DNA of 64,000 nucleotides from Granulicella cerasi (GTDB lineage: Bacteria; Acidobacteriota; Terriglobia; Terriglobales; Acidobacteriaceae): NCBI RefSeq assembly GCF_025685575.1, contig NZ_JAGSYD010000004.1, positions 1 through 64,000 on the forward strand, in the 5' to 3' direction. Positions 1-23,927 of this stretch are shown piece by piece (within the stretch, counting starts at the first letter, position 1; each line of letters opens with the position of its first letter). A model generated the notes under the pieces. The model had not been told where the DNA came from. It searched no databases and saw only the letters and a program-made list of their open reading frames with translations. Position numbers and translations under genes: made by a program.

Positions 1-660
1 GTCGTCGGTGTTGTACTCGACCTTGATGTAACAGTAGGCACAACCCATCACAGATGGGTAATCGCGAGTCCCGTTCGGAGACACGTAGGTGTTCCATGTA
101 GGGTCGTTGTTGGTGAGACCTTGAATGTAGTCACCGAAGGCCTGGTCACCAAAGCGAGGGACAACGTAGACACCACGATGACCTGACACCGCATTGGCGA
201 AACTGTACTGCTGACCGTTTGGTCCGGTGTAGGTCACACCGTTGCCACCACCACCGAAGCCATCTCCGTTACGAACGACGTAGTCGCCATCAGTTCCTGT
301 GAAGTACAGCCGGCGACCGTCCAAGTACATCGCATGAAACGATGTGATTTCGTGACACGCATACACAATGACGAGGTTGTACTGGTCTTTGGAACCGCCT
401 GTGGTGGACTCGTAAATCTCCACACCACCAACTCTCTGAGTTCCGTAAATGACCCGTCGAGGTGCTGCCGACTGCCGGATGGTACTCATGATTCCGTTGT
501 TCGACTGGAACAATGAAGCGATCTGAGTTAACTCTGCGGATGCACCACTGAGAACCATCGGCAACCATAAAGTCCCGACGAATCCACCAACAGGTGAAGC
601 GAGCAGAGCGACGCCAGCCGCAATCTCGATCATTCCGGCGACGGATATAGCCTTGCCCAT
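1..660 (-). CDS. Tail tip/attachment protein, J-like, 5' part (cut by window edge)
   Basis: This frame is open from an ATG at 660 to the window edge: 220 codons, so the stop is outside. The product starts MGKAISVAGMIEIAAGVALL, with a hydrophobic N-terminal stretch. It then carries an RRVIYGTQRVGG segment (about residues 67-78), typical of the N-terminal part of central tail-tip/host-attachment proteins of the lambda J and GTA hub kind. A glycine-rich stretch follows near residue 135. It lies directly after the small NlpC-like protein, as expected in the tip cassette. In siphophages this protein closes the tail tube and carries or anchors the receptor-binding region. The family call rests on position and the N-terminal motif; the diagnostic rest is not visible. 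Confidence 0.8.
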   Translation of the reverse strand, partial: MGKAISVAGMIEIAAGVALLASPVGGFVGTLWLPMVLSGASAELTQIASLFQSNNGIMSTIRQSAAPRRVIYGTQRVGGVEIYESTTGGSKDQYNLVIVYACHEITSFHAMYLDGRRLYFTGTDGDYVVRNGDGFGGGGNGVTYTGPNGQQYSFANAVSGHRGVYVVPRFGDQAFGDYIQGLTNNDPTWNTYVSPNGTRDYPSVMGCAYCYIKVEYNTDD

Positions 661-680
661 GAAGAAACTCCAATTGAAAA

Positions 681-696
681 GCCACCCGAAGGTGGC
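681..696 (-). terminator. UUCG-tetraloop hairpin before the J-like gene
   Basis: On the transcribed minus strand the DNA reads GCCACC-TTCG-GGTGGC followed by TTTTC. This is a perfect six-base-pair stem with a C(UUCG)G tetraloop and a short U run. It lies between the NlpC-like gene and the J-like gene, and could be a partial intrinsic terminator or an mRNA-stabilising hairpin. Confidence 0.5.
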
Positions 697-715
697 GTAT
701 GTGATGAATGTGTGT

Positions 716-1177
716 CTAGTTGGCGGGGACGTGCCATGCACGTTGAATCGAGCTGAGTGGTAAGCGGATGAATCCCGTCTCTGCCATAGCGGCTACGTAG
801 CGACCAGAGAGGTCGATGATTCCAGCGATGAGTTGTTCGCCGTTGAGACAGGCGACGATATCGCCACGCTTCGCCATCAAGGGCTGAGGAGAGCCATCGG
901 ACTTTACCCATTCGGTCATACCGTACTTCGTGGCACACCACGCGAAAGCATCGGCGACAGTGGAGCCACCGGTGACGGTTTTGATCAGTGCGAAAGCCGA
1001 GGCTTCGTCGGTGTATTTACCTCTGAACTCTTCGGCGATGTCCACGCCGGTCATCGTGAGAGCCGCGCCAGCGGCGAAGAGACAACAGTCCAGCGTTCCC
1101 CAAACGAAGGGCTTGGAATAGCAGGACAAGAGGTAGTCGGGAAGCTCTTTGGTGAGCCACGTTGATGATCGTTGCAT
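716..1177 (-). CDS. Tail-tip NlpC/P60-like protein (DUF6950-like)
   Basis: The product is 153 aa. The segment PFVWGTLDCCLFAAGAAL near the N-terminus matches the W-G-x-x-D-C motif of small phage proteins with an NlpC/P60-like papain fold, where the cysteine is the presumed nucleophile. A possible catalytic His is not obvious, so activity is uncertain. In siphophages and gene transfer agents a protein of this type sits between the distal tail/hub proteins and the J-like protein and helps tail penetration of peptidoglycan, as it does here. I chose ATG 1177, with GGGG upstream, over a TTG at 1192. The gene starts just inside the end of the preceding one. Confidence 0.75.
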   Translation of the reverse strand: MQRSSTWLTKELPDYLLSCYSKPFVWGTLDCCLFAAGAALTMTGVDIAEEFRGKYTDEASAFALIKTVTGGSTVADAFAWCATKYGMTEWVKSDGSPQPLMAKRGDIVACLNGEQLIAGIIDLSGRYVAAMAETGFIRLPLSSIQRAWHVPAN

Positions 1178-1182
1178 GTACG

Positions 1183-1728
1183 TTATCCCCAAGTGTTCGC
1201 GGTGTCGATGAGCGAGGTAATCCAGTCGAAGCCGTTGTCGTTAGGCCACTTCATTCGTTGATCTACAGCCGTGTAAAGCGAACGATGCGGACGTTGCAGA
1301 TTGGTCAAAGCGTTCTCTAAGGCGAGCGTGACGGTGATGTCGTCGGAGTTCTCGGTGATGGTTGGTTGATCGACAAGACCGGAGAAGATGACCAGAGCAT
1401 CGATGACGGTTGAACCTGACAGGCAAGCGAGAAGGATGCGAGCGGGAAGTCCGGTCACGATGTCGGTCATGCAATCCGCGTATAACGTCGGATCAACACC
1501 TGTAAGGGTGAGTGTGGTGCCTGCGGCTTCAACAGTGGTGTTCTCTGTGATCGTGCCGACCTTACCGAGGGAACCAACGCCTAGATAGGTGTTGCCGTTC
1601 CATGTGATTTGGCCGATGCCCGTGTGGACGAAGTATGTCCCACTCTTGAACGTGAGTTCGATGAGGATGGCTGGCCGTAGAACGCGTGCCGTGAGTGCCG
1701 CGCGCATGGCTGTGGAGAGATTTCTCAT
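1183..1728 (-). CDS. Minor tail / hub protein, DUF2163-like N-terminus
   Basis: The product is 181 aa. It begins with a charged helix and LIELTFKSGTYFVHTG, then ITWNGNTYLGVGSLGKVG. This is the pattern of phage and gene transfer agent baseplate-hub proteins (GTA gp13 type), which bind between the distal tail protein and the peptidase. It is shorter than the full-length GTA protein (about 290 aa), so it may be a reduced form. Its ATG overlaps the stop of the upstream gene (ATGA), which indicates translational coupling. The placement between a Dit-like gene and an NlpC-like gene supports the call. Confidence 0.65.
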   Translation of the reverse strand: MRNLSTAMRAALTARVLRPAILIELTFKSGTYFVHTGIGQITWNGNTYLGVGSLGKVGTITENTTVEAAGTTLTLTGVDPTLYADCMTDIVTGLPARILLACLSGSTVIDALVIFSGLVDQPTITENSDDITVTLALENALTNLQRPHRSLYTAVDQRMKWPNDNGFDWITSLIDTANTWG

Positions 1729-2360
1729 CAGCGAGCCTCCACGACGGTTAAAGTCAGAGCACCGTAACGAGTCTCATCGATAGTGATTGATTGCTTGTTG
1801 TCGCTCATCCTGAATAGTCCACGAGGGTTGTTCAAGATGATGGCCTGACCATCCGTTACCGCTTCTCTGAGCGAAGGCCACAGGCTGATAGTGGCGTCAC
1901 CGTTGGCGTCTGAGTTCACGACGTCGATCACGCGATGAAGGCGATAGCCAACTTGCAGATAGTCGCCGGGGAGAAGTAAGCGATAGCTATTCGGTGTCCA
2001 ACCTTTGGTGCTGAGCGTCGTCGCCATCGCGGACTGTGCACCATTGACGACCGGAACACCTTTAACGGTTCCTTGAGGATGTTTGTACGAAGGGTCACCA
2101 ATCAAAAAGGTGTTGAGCTTTCCACGACACTCAGCGAGGAACCCTTGCCACGTCGGTATCTGTTGGGGCGTCAGCTTCGGCATCGCGATCTGCGCCGACC
2201 AGAAGTCTCCACCCGGCCATGCCAGCACCTGTTGAGTTGAACCAGTGAATGGATTCGTCGGTGCAGCGACGACGTTGTTCATCGTCAACTCAATTTGTTT
2301 TGGCGCAGGAGAGGTCGGGAACGCGAGGACGCTCACGCCTTGAAATGTGTCTATGACCAT
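1728..2360 (-). CDS. Putative distal tail / minor tail protein
   Basis: The product is 210 aa with no strong family motif that I recognise. It is beta-rich, with an LPGDYLQVGYRLHRV segment near residue 135 that recalls structural tail proteins threading through the baseplate. It lies where GTA gp12 or Dit proteins sit, after the tape measure and before the hub protein, with only the SGNH tail gene interposed. I took ATG 2360 rather than a TTG at 2372. Position supports a structural tail role; the exact family is unproven. Confidence 0.55.
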   Translation of the reverse strand: MVIDTFQGVSVLAFPTSPAPKQIELTMNNVVAAPTNPFTGSTQQVLAWPGGDFWSAQIAMPKLTPQQIPTWQGFLAECRGKLNTFLIGDPSYKHPQGTVKGVPVVNGAQSAMATTLSTKGWTPNSYRLLLPGDYLQVGYRLHRVIDVVNSDANGDATISLWPSLREAVTDGQAIILNNPRGLFRMSDNKQSITIDETRYGALTLTVVEAR

Positions 2361-2377
2361 GGGGAGTTCCAATAAAG

Positions 2378-2399
2378 AAGGCCTCCCGAAGGAGACCTT
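2378..2399 (-). terminator. UUCG-tetraloop hairpin after the SGNH tail gene neighbourhood
   Basis: On the minus strand a nine-pair stem with one mismatch (AAGGTCTCC / GGAGGCCTT) closes a TTCG loop. A T-rich stretch, CTTTATT, follows. It lies between the SGNH tail gene (ends 2426) and the next tail gene (starts 2360). It is a candidate weak terminator or processing hairpin. Confidence 0.5.
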
Positions 2400-2425: not shown

Positions 2426-4018
2426 TTAGCCGAGCAGAGCTAACGTCTGTGCCGCGATGCACGGTCCGTAGAGCGTTTGATATGCACTATCGGTGGGGTG
2501 TACCCCATCGCGTAGATACGTTGACCATGTGGACGGATTGATCGGGATGGCACCACCATCGACGATACCTATACCCCATAGTGTCGCTATCTGCTTGATG
2601 AGCGTGTTGAGTTCAACAAACTGAGACTGACTCGCCATAGCAGCCGCACCCGGATTCGCTTGGTATGGCGTGATCCATACGATACGAAGTGTTGGCTTGG
2701 CCGTGAACAACGCTTGTAGAGCCGTGCTGATATCTCCGGCGGCTGAGGCTGTACCGGGTGCATCCGTAGAGGAACCGAAGGTGTTGGTGGGAGTGTTTGT
2801 CAGTAGCTCGATAAACAACACGTCCACGTTGGCAAGGTCTTGTGCAAGCGTGTTGCCGGTAGCCACACCGATGAGGTTCGACGCTGGGCTGGTCGTACTG
2901 TCGTGCCGCGTGTAGACACCACCTGACAGCGTGTAGTTCTCAAAGATTTGACTGGTATAGCGAGCGTATCGTGCATCTTGCATGACCCACGTCATACCAG
3001 TGATGTCGCACACGCGCTGTTGCCATTGGTTAGCAAACTGCGCGGAGATTGAATCACCGAATACGCCGAAGCGTAATCCGGATAGCCTCTTCGTCTCTGT
3101 GACGACTTCTTGAGCTGTGCTCGCAACGGTTTCGACATCGACAGTTGCCTCTTGCACCTCGAAGGCCAACGCCAACTCACCACTTTGCGCCATACTTTGC
3201 ACGCCAAAAGATGAGCCAACCGCACCGGGGTTACCACCTACAAAGATGAAGCCGGGACCAGGAGTGCCATCCCCGAATGTGGCCGTGGCGTTAGTCGCGG
3301 TGTAATAACCGAGGTACTGACCTACCGAGACGTTGCGAGCTGAGAAGTCTACGCCAGCAACTAGCTTCACCGTGCCAGCGTGGGGGACTGTGATCGTCCA
3401 TACGTCATCGACTACGAGTAGACCACCACTATTTGCGTGCAGTAAGTAGAACGTCATCGTACCGCCAGAGCTTGCGGACTGATAGGTGATGCTCTTCAAC
3501 GCGCCTGACGTCGCAACAGATGTGTTTACACCAGCGAAGATGCCAGTCGGAGTGGTGTTGTTGCAGGCGATGGTCGCGTCACCATACGAGGTCACTGTGT
3601 TGAAGCCGAGTTCGGTCGAAAGCGTTTTGAGAGCGGCGGTGAGGTCATACTGCACGGTGTTCTGTGCTGCGAGATTCGGCGCGTAGGAATCAAAGTCCCA
3701 CGTTACACCAGACGGTTGCACGCATTCATAACCGTGACTCAGTAGGAGGTCACCTGTGACGTTGTCTACGACGGTGACACGATAACCAACATTCACAGGC
3801 GTTGTGAGAGTTGTGTCGGCGAGTGTTGTGGTGAATGTACCATTGGTCACCGTCGCGGTTGTCGCCATTGCGATGACCTGTCCACCGTCGCCGCCAGCAC
3901 GGAACGAGAGAGGTCTTCCGTTGTTGTCAACGGGTTGGAATTTGATCGTCGAGTTTGTGACGAGTGTCCCACTCGCATCCTGTAGATGCGCGCCTGATAC
4001 TGTTGTGAATCCTGTCAT
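2426..4018 (-). CDS. Tail protein with C-terminal SGNH/GDSL hydrolase domain
   Basis: The product is 530 aa. Residues 1-120 look like an upper-fibre or baseplate beta-domain (TTVSGAHLQDASGTLV), and residues 140-300 form a beta-rich linker. From about 315 an SGNH hydrolase domain is visible: block I FGVFGDSIS with the nucleophile Ser near 323, and block V DGVHPTD with Asp 504 and His 507. SGNH domains in phage tails deacetylate or cleave surface polysaccharides during adsorption. Acidobacteria are rich in exopolysaccharide, so a capsule-active receptor-binding role is plausible but inferred. The gene starts 9 bp after the tape measure, an unusual place for a polysaccharide-active tail protein. 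Confidence 0.8.
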   Translation of the reverse strand: MTGFTTVSGAHLQDASGTLVTNSTIKFQPVDNNGRPLSFRAGGDGGQVIAMATTATVTNGTFTTTLADTTLTTPVNVGYRVTVVDNVTGDLLLSHGYECVQPSGVTWDFDSYAPNLAAQNTVQYDLTAALKTLSTELGFNTVTSYGDATIACNNTTPTGIFAGVNTSVATSGALKSITYQSASSGGTMTFYLLHANSGGLLVVDDVWTITVPHAGTVKLVAGVDFSARNVSVGQYLGYYTATNATATFGDGTPGPGFIFVGGNPGAVGSSFGVQSMAQSGELALAFEVQEATVDVETVASTAQEVVTETKRLSGLRFGVFGDSISAQFANQWQQRVCDITGMTWVMQDARYARYTSQIFENYTLSGGVYTRHDSTTSPASNLIGVATGNTLAQDLANVDVLFIELLTNTPTNTFGSSTDAPGTASAAGDISTALQALFTAKPTLRIVWITPYQANPGAAAMASQSQFVELNTLIKQIATLWGIGIVDGGAIPINPSTWSTYLRDGVHPTDSAYQTLYGPCIAAQTLALLG

Positions 4019-4027
4019 AGTTTTCCT

Positions 4028-6583
4028 TTATCGTCTTGATCCACGACGGGAATTGCCGTCGCTCACTGCGGCGCGTGCGCCGTGGGGCATCACTTGGGTG
4101 TGGTATTGCTGAAGCGCGGAGGTCACACCCTGATGGAACTCTTCAGGTGTGACACCCTTCTGGACGTTGATCGTGTACATCGCGGAGGAACCACCGCCGA
4201 ACATTGATCCTGCGGCATTAGCGGGGATCATCGTTCCATTCACCGAGGGTGCGAAGAACTCTTGTCCGGGCTTTTCATTGATCCTGTACACATGACCAAC
4301 GCTGACACCGCCACCAATCGCACGGTTACCACCGAAGATGCTGGAGAACCAGCCACCAATCTTGCTCATGAAGGAAGAGATTGTCGCGGCGACTGCATCA
4401 TCACCAGAGAAGTCTGCGCCGTCCTGTAAGAGGTCGGCTGTACCTGCGTCAGGCGTTGTCTTCTTCGAGTGGAAGAGCGAAGCGAGGCTCGCCATGCCGC
4501 CGAGGTTAGAGGCCGACGACATCGAATGTTTCCCCAGCAACGCGGCTTCGCCTTGCTGAAGACCATCCTTCGCCATCATGCCGCCGATACCGGTGAAGAG
4601 CTGGCTCCAGTTGGATTTCTTGCCCGTAATCAAATTGACAAGACTGTCGTTGAATCCATTGATGGTCGCATCGAAGATGGACTTCACTTGTGAGGCCGAG
4701 TCCTGTGCTGACTGAACCCACAAGTTGTTGGCCTGAATTAGAGCACCTGACCAGGACTGACCGGCTGCCGTAGCTGCCGATTGCATAGCCTCAACTGATG
4801 CCTGACCGGCTTCCTTCGTCTTCTGTGCCTGCAACTCGACATACTTCGACTGGTCTTTGTCGCTAGCGAATCGGTCGGTCACGAAGTCGTATGAACCGTC
4901 CTTCTTTAGTTGCTCGATCTGAGCATCCAAGTCGGCCAAACGTTGAGCGTGAAGGCCTGCGCTAATCGCCGCGAGTCTCTGTGTAGCTGTGAGCTGAGAG
5001 ATGGAGCCGTTCGCAAGGTCTATTTGAACCTTGGTGCGAGCGACCGATGCGGTGACCTCATCGCCCGACAGTGCAGACTTGGCGTATTCGTTCTGTAAGC
5101 CACGAGCGGAGGCATCACTATTGCCGACGACGGAGACATTACGATCAAGTGTGAGAGGAACCGACAGTTTCTTCTGTTCCTCGATGAACTTCGCAATGCC
5201 TTCGTGTACGCGGCGAGCACCTTCCTCGGCTAACTGGGCTTGCTTCGCGACAACGGTGTTGTATTGGTTGCTGCCAATGGTGAACGCTGATCGTTGCACT
5301 TCCCAATAATCGTAGAGAGCCTTCGCGTCTACCGGAGCTTGGAGCTTCCATTCGGAGACGTAGGCTTCCATCGACTTGAGGCGTGCTTCAGCGGCTTTGT
5401 TCGCTGCCTCTGTGTCACCATGTCCAAGCAACGCATCGTTATGCTTGTCTCTCGCACCTTGAGTTGCCGCCTGTTGCTTTTGCAACGCTATGGTCTTCTC
5501 GATGGTTTGTTGTTCCACCTGCTGCCACTGGATCAACTGCTGCGTGGCCCTTATCTCTTCGTTGAAGCTGGTCAGAGGGAGGGAACCGACGCCTTGCCGG
5601 GATGCATTCGCCATCGTCGCATTGTTGTCGGCTTGCTTCTGCTTCAACTCAGCGAGACGTGTCTGGAGGGAATTCGCATAGCTCTTCGACTCATTGAGTT
5701 GAGTCTCAGGTGATTGTGCTGCGGATATCCACTTCTGGTGTTCCTGCAACATCACTTGCTCTTGATGCGTGTCAGAACCACCACTGAAGATCTTTTGAGG
5801 CGTTGATGCAGCCATGCCTTGCAACACTTTGAGCTGTGCTGCAAACACTTCATCAAGCTTGGTCGTCAGTTTTTGCGCTGACTCAGCGGCTTCATCGAGA
5901 GTCAGTTTCAAACCATTGAATGGCTTCTTCTCTAGCTTGGCTTGTTCTTCCTGAAGCTTGTCGATCTGCACGTCCAGAGACGTGTTCTCATCGCGCATCG
6001 AGTTGTTGACTTCACGGATTTCGCTTGCGGTCTGTCGTGCCCGCGTGCCGCCTAAATCAAACGCGTCGTATAGCTCTTTGCCGAGCTTGACGGCTTCCTC
6101 ACCAATTGCGGCGAGGCCTAGTGCAGGGAATATCGTGGAGCTGAGTGCGTTGAAGGCACCGAACTGAGTGAGGAAGGATTCACCCGCACGGATACCACCA
6201 CCGCGCAACAATGCAGATGCACGCTGCTTATTGGTGATGTCATCGCCTTCCTTGGCTTCTGGAACCTTGAGGTTGGCGAGTTCAGACGCAACGGCTTTCT
6301 GCTTGTCGCTGATCCTCTGAATCGAGTTGATGATCCGCTGTGCGTTCTCTTCCGTAACAGATGAGAGGCGGGCAGCAGCCTTCTCCTGCATCGAGGCAAG
6401 CTTCTCGGCGGATGCACCTTGCTCTGCGGCAGCGGAAGATTGTTGCTGGTAGGACTTGAGAATGGCGTTTTTCGCAGCCGCAACGGTCTCAGCCGACTTT
6501 GCGACGGCTGCATCCATGCCTTCCACTGATGCGACGAACTGGCCGGTCTGAGCACTGAATACAACTGCAATCGAATCACTCAT
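4028..6583 (-). CDS. Tail tape measure protein
   Basis: The product is 851 aa, the longest protein of the tail module. It is Ala/Gln/Lys-rich and mostly helical, with long coiled-coil stretches (residues about 30-120, 200-420 and 500-620). A more hydrophobic, glycine-rich region lies around 650-790, with a short beta C-terminus (SAMYTINVQKGVTPEEF). Tape measure proteins set the tail length of siphophages; at roughly 0.15 nm per residue a tail near 130 nm would be expected. It lies downstream of the chaperone pair and gp10-like gene, whose end it overlaps by 8 bp. The identification is firm by size, composition and position. Confidence 0.92.
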   Translation of the reverse strand: MSDSIAVVFSAQTGQFVASVEGMDAAVAKSAETVAAAKNAILKSYQQQSSAAAEQGASAEKLASMQEKAAARLSSVTEENAQRIINSIQRISDKQKAVASELANLKVPEAKEGDDITNKQRASALLRGGGIRAGESFLTQFGAFNALSSTIFPALGLAAIGEEAVKLGKELYDAFDLGGTRARQTASEIREVNNSMRDENTSLDVQIDKLQEEQAKLEKKPFNGLKLTLDEAAESAQKLTTKLDEVFAAQLKVLQGMAASTPQKIFSGGSDTHQEQVMLQEHQKWISAAQSPETQLNESKSYANSLQTRLAELKQKQADNNATMANASRQGVGSLPLTSFNEEIRATQQLIQWQQVEQQTIEKTIALQKQQAATQGARDKHNDALLGHGDTEAANKAAEARLKSMEAYVSEWKLQAPVDAKALYDYWEVQRSAFTIGSNQYNTVVAKQAQLAEEGARRVHEGIAKFIEEQKKLSVPLTLDRNVSVVGNSDASARGLQNEYAKSALSGDEVTASVARTKVQIDLANGSISQLTATQRLAAISAGLHAQRLADLDAQIEQLKKDGSYDFVTDRFASDKDQSKYVELQAQKTKEAGQASVEAMQSAATAAGQSWSGALIQANNLWVQSAQDSASQVKSIFDATINGFNDSLVNLITGKKSNWSQLFTGIGGMMAKDGLQQGEAALLGKHSMSSASNLGGMASLASLFHSKKTTPDAGTADLLQDGADFSGDDAVAATISSFMSKIGGWFSSIFGGNRAIGGGVSVGHVYRINEKPGQEFFAPSVNGTMIPANAAGSMFGGGSSAMYTINVQKGVTPEEFHQGVTSALQQYHTQVMPHGARAAVSDGNSRRGSRR

Positions 6584-15308: not shown

Positions 15309-16073
15309 GTGATTCCCATACTTCTATTGCTATCCGTTACTATTGTGATCTTTGTTGTTTATATGAGGAAGATATCTGCTGAGGAAGCAGATAAGAGACC
15401 TCTTGATGACGCGCGGCAAGATCCTCCGGCGCAGATCGTCAGCGATCCTCCGGCGCGTGAGGCGGTCGCAGTTGCATCACCACCTAAGCCAAAACCGGAT
15501 CCTGTTCAGGTCGATATGCGTCGGCTGTTGCCTCAGCAGTTCGTGGTGCTGGACTTGGAGACTACCGGGCTACACGCTTCTACATGCGAGATCATCGAGA
15601 TCGGTGCTGTGAAGGTGACGCTAGATGAGTCGGAGCATCCGAGCTTTCAAATCTTGGTCAAGCCGCGCAAGAAGGTATCGGCAAAGATTGTGTCGATCAC
15701 AGGGATCACGCAGCAGATGCTTGACGAGCAGGGCGTTGAGATAGAGGATGCGATGTCTCAGTTCATTGAGTTCATCGGTGATCTTCCACTTGTCACATAC
15801 AATGCTGCATTCGACATGCCGTTTCTTTGGGCTGCGGCGTCGAAGTCTGGCGTGGTTGTTGAGAATCGATACACGTGCGCTCTAAAGAGAGCGCGCAGAG
15901 CATTCCCTTGGATGGAGAATCATAAGCTCGTGACGGTTGCTGCCCATCTGAATGCACCTGATAACGATCATCATCGCGCGTTGGCTGACAGCATTCGCGC
16001 TACACACGTCTTCTGGCACGCAACCAAGCAACTGAACATGAAGGTGCAATGGAAGAAATACGGTGCTATCTGA
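15309..16073 (+). CDS. Membrane-anchored DEDDh exonuclease
   Basis: The product is 254 aa from GTG 15309. Residues 2-19 are a hydrophobic membrane anchor (IPILLLLSVTIVIFVVY) followed by basic residues, predicting the rest in the cytoplasm. After a proline-rich linker (30-70) a DnaQ-like exonuclease domain shows all motifs: Exo I VVLDLETTGL (Asp 82, Glu 84), Exo II TYNAAFDMPFL (Asp 169) and Exo III HHRALADS (His 222, Asp 227). It is the only plus-strand gene among phage genes of known type, standing alone between two minus-strand units. Its end overlaps the methyltransferase end by 8 bp. This is the layout of a lysogenic-conversion or moron gene. A role against incoming DNA at the membrane is speculative. 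Confidence 0.85.
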   Translation: MIPILLLLSVTIVIFVVYMRKISAEEADKRPLDDARQDPPAQIVSDPPAREAVAVASPPKPKPDPVQVDMRRLLPQQFVVLDLETTGLHASTCEIIEIGAVKVTLDESEHPSFQILVKPRKKVSAKIVSITGITQQMLDEQGVEIEDAMSQFIEFIGDLPLVTYNAAFDMPFLWAAASKSGVVVENRYTCALKRARRAFPWMENHKLVTVAAHLNAPDNDHHRALADSIRATHVFWHATKQLNMKVQWKKYGAI

Positions 16074-17130
16074 TGTCGCTGGAGATTTCTTTGTAGATCG
16101 CTTCTGCTTGAGGCAGGAACGTGCCTTTCACATACATGAAGAACTGTTCAGCAGCAGCCAGTGTTGTTGCATCAGCAGCAAGGCTGATGCCTTTGTCTTC
16201 TGCGGCGGTTGATCCTGCTGTCAGAACAGCAATCGCTTGTGTGATGAGGCCTGATAGCAGTGTCTTTACCTCTGGCTCATCTTTTATGGCGTGGTCCAGA
16301 AGTGATACAACGTGGGGAAGGAATGCGACTGCTTGCTCGGCAACATGAGCGATGTCCATTCCTATGGTTTCAATGGTCTGCAGTGGATTCATGATCTTCT
16401 CTTCGGCTGCGTTGATTCGCGCCTTGGCGGTGTTGAAGTAAGCTGCATCTCGCTCGATGCCTATGAAGCATCTGACAGTGTTCATCGCCGCAACGCCAGT
16501 CGTTCCGCTGCCCATCGTGCAATCAAGAACAGTGTCGTTTTCATGGGTGTATGTGCGGATGAGGTAATCGCATAGCGCGACAGGCTTCTGTGTCGGGTGA
16601 TGGCCGCGTTCTGTGGGGAGCTTCAATACCGACTTCGGGTATCCAGTCCATTCTTGCAGATAAGTCGAACGTTTCTTTGCGCTTGCGATGTGCTGAAGAC
16701 GGCGTGATCCCTCTTTGTTGCTCATCCGCTTAGGCTTCGCTAGCTTGATCAAGCCTTGAGGGTTGTATGTCGGCTGTCTCTGAGCGAACACAACGACGTC
16801 TTCATGCTGCTTCAAAGGCTGCTTCTTCGCTAATTGGAAGTTGGAGTGCCGATCTTTCTCCCATACCCAGCAGTAGCGAAACGCCTTGAGGTTCGATGCG
16901 ATGAGAGCAGTAGTGAACGGCTGGGATGCCGTAAGGACGATAGCGGCATTCGGCTTACAGATGCGCCTCCATTCGACCCACAGCTTCTCTAGCGGAATGA
17001 TGGAGTCCCACGTACATCCTGTAGTGCCATACGGCAGATCCGTGAGAACCATATCGACACTGTTATCTGGCAACGACTTCATCTGTTCCAGGCAGTCGCC
17101 CAGCATCAGTTGTGTCGTTGCGTTGCTCAT
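16066..17130 (-). CDS. DNA methyltransferase (beta class, N6-adenine or N4-cytosine) with extra C-terminal domain
   Basis: The product is 354 aa. Motif IV is TDLPYG (30-35), a variant of DPPY, and it precedes the SAM-binding motif I DCTMGSGTTG (203-212), the order of beta-class enzymes. The HHPTQKPVALCDYLIRTY segment is typical of N6-adenine/N4-cytosine phage methyltransferases. Residues about 247-354 form an additional Ala-rich helical region with no match I recognise. It may protect phage DNA from restriction; no paired nuclease is evident apart from the adjacent HNH gene, whose stop overlaps its ATG (ATGA). Confidence 0.9.
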   Translation of the reverse strand: MSNATTQLMLGDCLEQMKSLPDNSVDMVLTDLPYGTTGCTWDSIIPLEKLWVEWRRICKPNAAIVLTASQPFTTALIASNLKAFRYCWVWEKDRHSNFQLAKKQPLKQHEDVVVFAQRQPTYNPQGLIKLAKPKRMSNKEGSRRLQHIASAKKRSTYLQEWTGYPKSVLKLPTERGHHPTQKPVALCDYLIRTYTHENDTVLDCTMGSGTTGVAAMNTVRCFIGIERDAAYFNTAKARINAAEEKIMNPLQTIETIGMDIAHVAEQAVAFLPHVVSLLDHAIKDEPEVKTLLSGLITQAIAVLTAGSTAAEDKGISLAADATTLAAAEQFFMYVKGTFLPQAEAIYKEISSDIR

Positions 17131-17486
17131 ACAGGTGCCTTTTGCTCATGGGCCGTCTTTGCTCTGTGGCAAGAGCGGCATAGGGATTGCAGGTTGGTTA
17201 GATCGAGGCGTTTGGTGATGTCTACGCTGATGGGGATGATGTGATCTACATCCTGTGCAGGAGTAATCTTGTTCAGCGCGAGGCAATGAACACAGAGAAA
17301 TTTATCTCGCCGAAGAGCTTCAATACGAATCGTCTTCCAATCAGCGTCGTAACCACGTGAAGCTGGCGTTCCACGCCATCTTTCTCTCGCCTGAGCTACG
17401 GGTTTGGCATGAGCTTCGCAGTAGCCAGATGCAACGAGAGCAGAGCAGTTGGGATACCTACAGGGTTTATTCGGTCTGCTTGCCAT
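17127..17486 (-). CDS. HNH endonuclease
   Basis: The product is 119 aa from ATG 17486. A CRYPNCSALVASGYCEAH zinc-knuckle-like start is followed by RGYDADWKTIRIEALRRD, FLCVHCL, and the HNH core DVDHIIPIS ... LQSLCRSCHRAKTA. This is the common phage HNH family often placed near terminase genes and needed for packaging in HK97-type phages. Here it is separated from terS by the methyltransferase and exonuclease. A homing or restriction role is an alternative. Confidence 0.88.
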   Translation of the reverse strand: MASRPNKPCRYPNCSALVASGYCEAHAKPVAQARERWRGTPASRGYDADWKTIRIEALRRDKFLCVHCLALNKITPAQDVDHIIPISVDITKRLDLTNLQSLCRSCHRAKTAHEQKAPV

Positions 17487-18589
17487 CGGGAGCCATGAGC
17501 GCAGTGAACGCAAGTGCTACTTGTTGAGGAACGACACCGTTGCCAATCATTGCGATTCGCTTCGGGCGATTGATGCACTGATCCTTATGGATCGTGCGAG
17601 GTGCCTCGTAATCGTGTTGTTCATCACCCTGGCCTTTAGGGAAGCCGGGAAATGTGCGGGCACAGGCAGACGTGCTCGACCAGCCGATCGGCCAACCCAT
17701 CAGCAACTCACACCACGCAGGATTGAGACGATTCGAGGGACTTCCATTGCTCAGTTCTTGCACCTGGCTGACGATGTTGGTGAACTTGCCCGTTGTGAGG
17801 CAAAACTTCGAGTCAGTTTTGATCGGCGTGGACCAGTTCCTCACTTCGCGGGTGACGGTGTTGTATGCCGTTGTGACCCTCGTGCTTTCACATGAGTCAT
17901 GCTTCTGAGGCGTGGTCCAGTTCTTGCCGTAGACGACTTGCTCACGCAGCGTTGGGCAGGATGTTCTACCCGGCCGATTCTTCTGCTGATATGCAGTCAA
18001 TGCTTCCTGTGATCTTGGATCCAGCTTGTCCATCACATTCGGAGTCAGCCACGGTTCTCCATGCGAGGCAGAACCAGCGTTCTCTTTTGTGGGGTGCACC
18101 TGCTTCTGAGGCAGTGTGACAGTGCCAGACAGCATCAAACCCTGCTTCGTCCATGAGCCGCATAACGTCTGTGACTGGTGCTGTTCCGTCTTTTTTACCG
18201 GAGAGCAAACCTGGAACGTTTTCGAGGAAGAGGAGAGATGCGCCTGCTTCGTTGGCGATACGAATGACATCTGCGAATAGGTAGCGTTCATCTTCGAGGC
18301 CAGCTCGTTTCCCTGCAACGGAGAATGGTTGGCAAGGGAAGCCTGCAATGACAACGTCAATGTGTCCTTCAAGTTGGGTGGCGTTGAGCGTTGTGACATC
18401 GGACCAGATAGGTGCTCGGTAGAGGAGGTCGTCTTGCATCCTCGCCTGGAGGACTTCTTGCGCATACTTTTCACGCTCACAGTAGAGGATGGTTCGGAGT
18501 TCATAATCTTGTGTCTTTAGGGCCGCAGCGCAGCCACGGTCAAGCATCCCTGATCCTGAAAACAGGGAGATGGCATTCAGTATTTTCAT
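17467..18589 (-). pseudogene. DNA cytosine-5 methyltransferase, frameshifted
   Basis: The N-terminal part (ATG 18589) contains the C5 methyltransferase motifs: ISLFSGSGMLDRG (motif I), GFPCQPFSVAGKR with the catalytic Cys (about 86), ENVPG (motif VI) and HKRERWFCLA (motif VIII). This frame then drifts and stops at 17966. The C-terminal part (WLTPNVMDKLDPRSQEAL, LNPAWCELLMGWPIGW, RIAMIGNGVVPQQVALAF) is in the frame one base further on, ending at 17467. The switch lies about 18,050-18,085. Removing one base would restore a 373-aa protein of normal length. It may be a true mutation, a sequencing error or, less likely, programmed. Confidence 0.85.
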
Positions 18590-18770: not shown

Positions 18771-19244
18771 CTATTTGAGATTCTTTCGGTATCGGCGGAA
18801 TCTCTGACGCAGTGTATCGGCTTCTAAGCCCTGCATCTCAGCGGCTTCTTTGATCGTGTAGCCAGAAGCTAGTAGTGATGCTGATTGGCGTATTGGAACA
18901 GGCAGGATAGATGTGTCGAATGCAACTGGATCGTCTTCAATCGCGCATTCTGTGAAGTCATCTGCAAGCTGAATCAACATCTGAGCCTTCATCTGGTTCA
19001 ATCGAATCCGACGAATGATGCTCGAGAGCCAATGCGAGAACGATCCAGCCGACTGTGGAATAAAGCCAGGTAGTAAGCTCCAGATGGTTATGCTCACGTC
19101 CTGAGCGAAATCTTCTCGGTGCTCATACACCGTTCCGCGTGCAGCTTTGTAGGCCATGCGCCGAACGGCAGAGATCAACACCGCGAGAGCCTCTTCGGTT
19201 GGCCGGATGGACCACGCCAGGTATAGGGAATCAACGTTACCCAT
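18771..19244 (-). CDS. ECF-like sigma factor, phage-encoded
   Basis: The product is 157 aa. The N-terminal half has a region 2-like pattern (LISAVRRMAYKAARG ... HREDFAQDVSITIWSLLPGF). The C-terminal half has a region 4-like helix-turn-helix (LLASGYTIKEAAEMQGLEADTLRQRFRRYRKNL). That layout is the minimal sigma-70 ECF type. It sits between the early and late gene blocks, so it may direct RNA polymerase to late promoters. The overlap with the upstream small gene is 8 bp. Family membership is moderate-confidence because region 2 is divergent. Confidence 0.7.
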   Translation of the reverse strand: MGNVDSLYLAWSIRPTEEALAVLISAVRRMAYKAARGTVYEHREDFAQDVSITIWSLLPGFIPQSAGSFSHWLSSIIRRIRLNQMKAQMLIQLADDFTECAIEDDPVAFDTSILPVPIRQSASLLASGYTIKEAAEMQGLEADTLRQRFRRYRKNLK

Positions 19245-22351: not shown

Positions 22352-23572
22352 TCAGCGATCCAGAGCCGCCTTCATCACATCGGCAACGTGAGACGGCGAC
22401 AGGTGGGTGTAGCGAGCAGACATCGCGAGTGTGGAGTGGCCCAGAACCTCTTGAATGACCTTCTGGTTTGCTCCCCCAGCGGCTAGGCGTGAACCAGCCG
22501 TGTGGCGGCTGAGGTCATGCCAACGAAGGGATTTGATGCCAGCTTCGTCCTTGGCCTTCTTGAACCACTCACGGTTCTCTCGAATCGTAAAAACCCTGCC
22601 ATCCAACTTCATGCGCTCAGAGCCATAGCCTACGCCGCGAAGGGAAGCAAGCTCCTGCTGAATTGCCTTCTGATCCAGCAATGCTTTGTAAACGCTATCG
22701 GTCATTGGAATGACGTGCGGACGACCGCTCTTCGTATCAGGTAGCACGATAAGGCGTAGCGTTAAATTGATGTCCTCAACCCAGCGGAGCGCATACTGGT
22801 TGCCCTTACGCATTCCCGACTGTGAGGCCACAGTGATCTCGTTGAGGTGTTCACGGAACATTAGGCGGGTCGCACGGTGCTCTTCAGGCGTTTCGTCAAT
22901 CCATTTCTGAATGACGTTCCTCAGTTGCTTCTCTTCGTCATCCTGCATCCATCGTGGAATCCCGAGTTCTTCGGTGAAGCGTTTCACTCCACTTGTCGGG
23001 TTGATCTTCAGCTTCTTGCGCTCGATGGCATACTCATAGACGCTACTCAAAGTCGTCTTGTAGCGGTTCATTGTTCCATCCGAGAGATTCAAGGATTCTA
23101 AGAAGTCCTTCACCTCGTGAGGCTCGATTGAGTCTGCGTAACGATCCGCAAACGCCTTACGAATCGCCTTGAAGCGTGATTCCATATTGCCGATGCGAGC
23201 CTGCGGATCAGAGACGTATCCCGTCTTCTTGATGTTCTGGAGCTTCTCGCGCTCGGCGGTCTCTTTCTGCTTGAGCATGTACTCGTCGATGAGGTCGACG
23301 AGGAGCAAGTTGGAGACATATCCACGTTTCTCTTGCTCTGAGCTGGTGAGCAGTGGGAGCTTGGCTGTCGTCGGAAGCCGCTCACCTGTGACGCGCATGA
23401 GGCGTACCTTCTCGATGTGCTCGATTGCGGTCGCTTGGGTCTTGAAGGTCTTTCGTACATCCTTGCCCGAGAACCAATAGCGGGCGGTCCAGGTGCTGCC
23501 GCTCTTGCCTTTCTGCTCGTAAATTCCGGCAATGTCGCCTTCGATGATCTTCGGTTTCCGTCCGCGTGGCAT
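22352..23572 (-). CDS. int: Tyrosine integrase
   Basis: The product is 406 aa from ATG 23572 (GAGGGG ribosome site; the ATG at 23599 has none). An N-terminal arm-binding region with GSTWTARYWFSGKDVRKTFK is followed by a SAM-like core-binding domain (ADRYADSIEPHEVKDFLESLN). The catalytic domain shows Arg in SGMRKGNQYALRW, His and Arg in WHDLSRHTAGSRL, and the nucleophilic Tyr in LGHSTLAMSARYTHL. It recombines attP with the tRNA-Glu attachment site next to it. Its start lies about 180 bp from the attachment site. Confidence 0.95.
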   Translation of the reverse strand: MPRGRKPKIIEGDIAGIYEQKGKSGSTWTARYWFSGKDVRKTFKTQATAIEHIEKVRLMRVTGERLPTTAKLPLLTSSEQEKRGYVSNLLLVDLIDEYMLKQKETAEREKLQNIKKTGYVSDPQARIGNMESRFKAIRKAFADRYADSIEPHEVKDFLESLNLSDGTMNRYKTTLSSVYEYAIERKKLKINPTSGVKRFTEELGIPRWMQDDEEKQLRNVIQKWIDETPEEHRATRLMFREHLNEITVASQSGMRKGNQYALRWVEDINLTLRLIVLPDTKSGRPHVIPMTDSVYKALLDQKAIQQELASLRGVGYGSERMKLDGRVFTIRENREWFKKAKDEAGIKSLRWHDLSRHTAGSRLAAGGANQKVIQEVLGHSTLAMSARYTHLSPSHVADVMKAALDR

Positions 23573-23604
23573 GAGTTGGCCCCTCGGACAGTGTGGCATA
23601 AAAA

Positions 23605-23625: not shown

Positions 23626-23754
23626 AGGTACCGTTAATTCGTGCATTTCGGTGCAGCGGAGTTCGTTAGCGAATCGCTGTAAGTGTTGCAGTGTAATGGA
23701 TTAGCGGGACGATGTGCGGTGCGGTGCAAATTCGTGCAAACGACCATTTACACC

Positions 23755-23799
23755 CTCTCAAGGCGAAGAGTCCGGGTTCGAGCCCCGGTAACGCTACCA
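23755..23799 (+). other. attR: displaced 3' half of tRNA-Glu(CTC)-like gene
   Basis: From the anticodon loop (CTCTCAA) the strand reads through the anticodon 3' stem, the variable loop, a T arm (CCGGGTTCGAGCCCCGG), TAACGCT, discriminator A and CCA. The 5' half is absent; the sequence to the left is phage-derived (ACACC instead of a matching stem). So the attachment core spans the 3' half of the tRNA, and the intact hybrid tRNA should sit left of position 1. The isotype follows from the CTC loop and is tentative. Confidence 0.8.
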
Positions 23800-23927
23800 A
23801 AAACCTCCCCTTCAATTTTTAGTTCCAGTAAGCAGCTAGGAGACTCATTCTTCAGCTTACGCTCTGCTATGACCCTGTCGACTTAGGAATTTCGTGCGTC
23901 ACGATGCGAGTGTGCCGGAGGTCTCGC

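Follow-up and report, generated by a model that had tools for sequence, protein, structure and literature searches.

Introduction

The closest precedents for the protein considered in this analysis are the tailspike gp63.1 of coliphage G7C and the SGNH fibres of Klebsiella prophages. The G7C tailspike deacetylates a surface polysaccharide and leaves the chain undegraded (PMC13123978, PMC12312913), an activity that has been tested and that is needed for infection. Two fibres of Klebsiella pneumoniae prophages, 164_08-KL2 and 174_38-KL55, hydrolyse p-nitrophenyl acetate, and the authors who describe them warn that the activity of such SGNH fibres is not reliably readable from sequence (PMC13123978). 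In cyanophage A-1(L), residues 2-110 of the fibre gp33 are beta-ring domains that encircle the baseplate (PMC10966104). Relatives of Acidobacteriaceae soil bacteria have been reported to form exopolysaccharide and capsules.

The DNA analyzed here (the window, 64,000 nucleotides) spans the first 64 kb of contig C4, part of a 4.08 Mb genome from the family Acidobacteriaceae. Within a prophage at the start of the window is a gene for a 530-aa protein that is probably a side tail fibre, docking near the tail tip and presenting an O-acetyl-esterase to a surface glycan.

Results

The gene and its neighbours

The 530-aa protein is encoded on the minus strand, with an ATG at 4018 and a stop at 2426, and the preliminary description of this DNA was exact in coordinates, strand and frame. 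Upstream there is room for three more in-frame codons only (an open frame of 533 aa), and a chance open reading frame was ruled out by the Pfam score and the existence of relatives. The gene sits among tail structural genes, all on the same strand:

4028..6583, minus strand: tape measure gene, the upstream neighbour (Tape_meas_lam_C, 1.3e-13)
4019..4027, minus strand: 9-bp gap behind the tape-measure stop, containing a purine-rich stretch that resembles a ribosome-binding site (from the sequence)
2426..4018, minus strand: gene for a tail-fibre-like protein with a C-terminal GDSL/SGNH domain (open reading frame and Pfam)
2378..2399, minus strand: terminator-like hairpin with a UUCG loop, directly 3' of the gene (from folding)
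1728..2372, minus strand: distal tail protein (Dit) gene, the downstream neighbour (phrog_1302, 1e-43)
1183..1728, minus strand: hub-like tail protein gene (phrog_2048, 1.3e-44)
716..1192, minus strand: DUF6950 gene, termed NlpC-like in the preliminary description (DUF6950, 1.4e-29)
1..741, minus strand: J-like tail tip gene, truncated at the contig end and likely continuing at the start of contig C2 (phrog_5616, 1.3e-8; phrog_31, 6.6e-4)

With phage tail genes on both sides, a Pfam match above the cut-off and recognizable neighbours, the gene is what the preliminary description took it to be, an SGNH protein of the tail module between the tape measure and tail tip genes. The GTA gene order, to which this module had been likened, is followed in outline; the likeness is incomplete in that the hub-like protein resembles PF09931 below the cut-off (20.2 vs 26) and the Dit product has no Pfam match above chance. 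That the gene is interposed is borne out by records carrying a similar Dit, since tape measure and Dit adjoin in 13 of the 20 listed (of 138 found), as judged by a 'tape measure' annotation under the same Dit match and with several of the 13 being mutual close relatives.

The hairpin directly 3' of the gene (a 56-nt fold of -14.6 kcal/mol, z -2.2, equalled by 3 of 200 shuffles) is what might be expected of a moron, that is, a lysogenic-conversion enzyme acting outside the virion, with which the lysogen would alter its own coat, for example excluding other phages. Terminator-like sites are in no excess across the region, with 11 observed and 12.6 expected from shuffles. Against a moron, a consensus scan, limited to the sigma-70 consensus, found no promoter-like site ahead of the gene, which follows the tape measure on the same strand after 9 bp. 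Combined with the anchor and signal peptide results below, these observations render the moron reading improbable.

The prophage

Upstream on the same strand are matches to a major tail protein, head-tail adaptor, major head protein, maturation protease, portal and both terminase subunits (large and small). These are followed by methyltransferases, HNH nucleases, a sigma factor and an integrase. The head, tail and terminase matches together with the integrase on the same strand identify the element as a prophage, for which the window holds two further features:

22352..23599, minus strand: integrase gene of the prophage
23753..23802, no strand assigned: probable attachment-site copy of 50 bp, identical to C2:10948-10997

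The copy on C2 overlaps the end of a tRNA-Glu gene. The contig end interrupts the prophage within J; the first 140 bases of the window, reversed, are the first 140 of contig C2, and C2 carries the remainder of a J gene. This fits one prophage with a putative length of ~34.6 kb at tRNA-Glu, split between C4 and C2, in which the join has to be inferred because the end of C4 has the same 140 bases too. Further related prophages occur in the same genome at C4:367005-367187 (L107) and at the start of C5 (L109). In the prophage copy at the C4 end, a head-tail adaptor-like gene runs straight into a piece of J, the result of either a deletion or an assembly artefact; this sister prophage was dropped as a natural control lacking the gene, the slot itself being missing there.

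Among the other contents of the element are a sigma-factor-like gene (18771-19244, phrog_1740) and three methyltransferase-like open reading frames, two of them overlapping (16066-18589). Large RHS-repeat proteins are encoded at C2:4611-9593 (L108), within the inferred prophage, and at C5:4962-9578 (L109), both downstream of J on the opposite strand. The one on C2 terminates in a phage-lysozyme domain and could be a polymorphic-toxin-like protein carried by the prophage.

Domain architecture

The protein divides into three parts:

3650..4018, minus strand: residues 1-123, N-terminal beta-sandwich domain also present in other tail proteins of acidobacterial phages (the anchor)
3095..3649, minus strand: residues 124-308, middle region (no Pfam match, no significant PHROG match)
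2429..3094, minus strand: residues 309-530, SGNH/GDSL-type domain (Pfam, profile and fold matches)

The anchor has no significant match in Pfam or PHROG scans and was modelled, as residues 1-125, at a mean pLDDT of 87.9. Its best solved match is 8kec_a, from the tail fibre of cyanophage A-1(L) (Z 9.9 over 104 residues, rmsd 3.2), with a Foldseek E-value of only 0.014; the next matches, at Z 7.9, are tail tip chains of Ur-lambda and Bxb1, level with a human TTR-like domain (7.7), a reminder that this fold is common. Entry 8KEC contains both A-1(L) fibres; at 279 residues, chain a has the length expected of the short fibre gp33. If chain a is gp33, the matched residues 2-114 coincide with its beta-ring domain. 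This resemblance to virion anchors also speaks against a moron. The anchor is restricted in lineage. Within the order, 30 of 397 genomes carry it at E 1e-10, and within the class 20 of 399 do so at E 1e-5; all of the 30 and 17 of the 20 belong to the window's own family, and the two genome samples overlap. The relatives of the anchor and the family of the genome agree with the acidobacterial host proposed in the preliminary description.

Residues 319-514 match Pfam PF13472 (Lipase_GDSL_2; E 7.8e-9) at 36.7 bits, past the gathering cut-off of 32.9, and this places the protein within the GDSL/SGNH hydrolase superfamily. Searched as a profile against solved chains, the SGNH part scores best with 8egr_K of staphylococcal phage Andhra (E 3.9e-9) and also matches gp59 of 80alpha (6v8i, E 0.0024). 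The predicted fold, from about residue 310, aligns with CE2 and CE3 carbohydrate esterases, a sialate O-acetylesterase and acetyl-xylan esterases at Z 9-12, reaching 11.9 for SGNH esterases; the absence of a family from the fold list was not counted as evidence. The SGNH-type esterase domain of the preliminary description is thus retained on Pfam, profile and fold matches. In the full model the anchor is good and residues 311-490 are fair (pLDDT of 44-89 in blocks of ten), with 120-310 and the part past 490 below usable confidence. Because pLDDT is below 50 after residue 490, block V included, that block is not reliably placed in the model.

Single-protein searches of 50,697 phage records found no match for the whole protein, the SGNH part or the middle region, and searches of the same kind in viral contigs found none for the whole protein or the middle region. 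As a single query, P0001 retrieved no PDB chain below E 1. The suggestion that the protein might be a depolymerase finds no counterpart in a beta-helix, lyase or glycosidase match in Pfam or PHROG, with residues 120-310 the part that could hide one. The companion suggestion of deacetylation holds up better, since tested SGNH tail fibres (PMC13123978) make it the likely chemistry by analogy. The host genome encodes 7 Acyl_transf_3 proteins, so O-acylation of its glycans is possible, and this evidence is weak since Acyl_transf_3 is present in 10 of 14 control genomes; a search of the host genome for MBOAT proteins found none.

The active site

Conserved positions of SGNH proteins are named by block, with Ser in block I, the Gly of the oxyanion hole in block II, Asn in block III, and Asp and His in block V. 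Alignments assign these positions as follows:

3050..3052, minus strand: codon of Ser323, block I, in GDS
2963..2965, minus strand: codon of Ala352, where most relatives have the block II Gly
2795..2797, minus strand: codon of Asn408, block III, here LTNT
2498..2509, minus strand: codons of Asp504 to His507, block V, DGVH

The catalytic set of Ser323, Asn408, Asp504 and His507 is present in full. The block II Gly, kept in 11 of the 13 other alignment rows, is Ala352 in the window protein, and the first Gly of the block III GxND, kept in all 13, is Leu (the full GxND stands in 9 of the 13; the rows include near-duplicates). These two substitutions are why the protein is filed as GDSL/SGNH-fold and not as a canonical SGNH enzyme, and why its activity is uncertain and could be weak. 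They are also what would be expected of a tail fibre with a dead SGNH domain, anchored at the tip and using the fold only to bind an acylated glycan. Such a fibre is unlikely, in that the catalytic residues are all in place, the Asp of GxND varies among relatives (GTNF, GTNS, GSNQ), and a second protein of the same genome (L026) has the same block II Ala and yet an intact GTND. Judged from these residues, esterase catalysis is plausible and cannot be assumed.

Relatives, gene slot and modularity

A class-wide search with the 530-aa protein matched 11 of 399 genomes, its own included, and some of the matches cover only the first 190 residues and others only the SGNH part. The anchor alignment (A3), used as a query, retrieved 19 IMG/VR loci and 5 GTDB contig loci, some of which are the same phage twice. 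For the gene neighbourhoods, 76 open reading frames with the N-terminal domain were examined. Only the 38 accompanied on the same strand by a tape-measure gene plus Dit or J entered the count, as 29 representatives at 90% identity, and the remaining 38 were set aside; in L030_9958, one of the 29, the anchor domain is incomplete.

The slot between tape measure and Dit is occupied in 11 of these 29 tail-module members, the window included, and the insertion implied by the preliminary description is therefore no one-off. The remaining members lie after J (14), before the tape measure (2) or between hub and DUF6950 (1), and in L142 the gene is still between tape measure and Dit, only behind an extra open reading frame. 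Where the gene is placed elsewhere, Dit can directly follow the tape measure (e.g., L020 and L043). Six of the 11 members in the tape-measure/Dit slot have an SGNH or GDSL match, either by the SGNH profile built for this analysis (the window, L019/L041, the second open reading frame of L039, L040 and L058) or by Pfam above the cut-off (L139, which also matches phrog_11419, annotated as tail fiber, at 7.4e-51). The other occupants of this slot are L035, with only a GDSL match below the cut-off, L031, with a weak one (E 0.03), L042, with a beta-helix, and L055 and L148, without a Pfam match. Outside it, L091, after J, ends in a K1-lyase_C match just below the cut-off, and one of the two genes of L052 before the tape measure matches a beta-propeller. 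Exchange of the outer parts shows also in L040 and L058, whose SGNH parts are 86% identical and whose anchors are 57% identical. In L019/L041, block V is lost through a frame change.

The recurrence of the tape-measure/Dit slot in 11 of 29 members is the observation that would suit a chaperone or accessory factor in the assembly of the tape measure or tail tip, whose SGNH domain would serve assembly and not host contact. A protein of this kind is very improbable here, given that the outer domains are exchanged for unrelated folds and the gene lies elsewhere in 18 of 29 (L142 among them). Swapped outer parts are the pattern expected of receptor-binding proteins, and together with the variable slot they fit host recognition and not a fixed assembly task. 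Collagen-like repeats above the cut-off in tail-module members L030, L052, L089, L143 and L156 suggest that some relatives may form trimers.

Elsewhere in the host genome there is one anchor-domain gene, the L026 locus (C3:727690-730077), which encodes a second anchor and SGNH protein, of 824 aa, for which the looser of the rules given below predicts a signal peptide and around which no tail genes were recognised. L023, L024 and L025 combine a related SGNH domain with N-termini like those of lipoproteins, collagen-like repeats and segments similar to CBM5/12 (some below cut-off). Since L023 and L024 appear to be chromosomal, the SGNH module may be exchanged between host and phage.

Predicted signal peptides in relatives

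Under a strict rule, a Sec-type signal peptide was predicted directly ahead of the anchor in 15 of the 29 tail-module members (L030, L031, L035, L043, L045, two in L052, L055, L089, L142, two in L143, L147, L148 and L156); the same rule flags 3 of 293 control genes. A looser first heuristic was positive for 18 of the 29 and also for 54 of the 293 controls, 36 of these being J or hub genes, which is why the strict rule was adopted; it was set after the first control result with the same controls in use, and the cluster counts were redone by hand. It should be noted that the controls, homologs of phage genes in the window that come from the same loci, keep any redundancy and had more start codons scanned than the test genes did. 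Both rules flag 4 of the 11 members of the tape-measure/Dit slot (L031, L035, L055 and L148). The window protein has no signal peptide, and there is no room for one upstream.

The signal-bearing members are the most surprising lead of this analysis. Signal peptides in so many relatives are odd for a virion fibre and, with a cassette position that varies among phages, would agree with a moron; the 530-aa gene itself has neither a promoter of its own, by the consensus scan, nor an export signal. Tentatively, the fibre family might exist in two trafficking forms, with the signal-bearing members, about half of the total and located in the same tail-module slots, exporting their own fibre or glycan-modifying enzyme from the producing cell and the window gene representing the unsignalled form. 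Under this doubtful scheme, the mature signalled proteins would begin within a few residues of the start of the unsignalled members, and export could serve release before lysis, display on the lysogen or virion assembly outside the cytoplasm. Among the papers listed for this topic, no title or abstract opening reports signal-bearing fibres, which is not proof of novelty. These members raise the question of where phage fibres are made and mature.

Discussion

The favored reading of the 530-aa protein, a side tail fibre with an esterase, would work as follows. The prophage would give rise to a temperate phage of siphophage type, in whose virion the gene product would serve as a side tail fibre, that is, a receptor-binding protein. 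The N-terminal transthyretin-like domain would dock the fibre at the distal tail, the middle part would act as a spacer, and the C-terminal SGNH-type domain would contact a polysaccharide of the host envelope at adsorption. There it would remove ester-linked acyl groups, most likely O-acetyl, so that the coat would be modified and not cut. On this best reading, the Acidobacteriaceae, hosts that have been little studied, are a new host group for a known kind of protein, the esterase-bearing tail fibre. Fibres of this kind have so far been tested in enterobacterial phages (PMC13123978), and the window suggests that they also serve temperate phages of the Acidobacteriaceae.

Several described proteins share one part of this architecture. 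The gp33 beta-ring domain of cyanophage A-1(L) (8KEC; PMC10966104) resembles the window protein in its N-terminal fold, over about 104 residues at Z 9.9. It differs in sharing 15% identity, in belonging to a contractile-tailed phage and, unlike the window protein, in lacking a GDSL domain, as gp33 has no Pfam match. Gp59 of 80alpha (6v8i) and chain 8egr_K are virion chains matched by the profile of the SGNH part, both within other architectures. The latter was deposited as an SGNH_hydro domain-containing protein of the phage that is named Andhra in PMC9710869, a paper whose passages, so far as seen, do not mention SGNH. Pantoea stewartii WceF (PMC7949094) is a bacterial glycan-modifying enzyme with a tailspike-like fold and offers a possible precedent for the exported relatives; its fold is that of a tailspike and not SGNH, and it is apparently no gene of a prophage tail module.

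The two closest precedents are likened to the window protein by description. G7C gp63.1 is likewise an SGNH receptor-binding protein (PMC13123978, PMC12312913), with the differences that its activity has been tested and that G7C is a podophage. The Klebsiella fibres 164_08-KL2 and 174_38-KL55 come from another host phylum and share with the window protein a temperate origin, a C-terminal SGNH domain and a proposed role in deacetylating the bacterial coat, which in their case is the capsule (PMC13123978).
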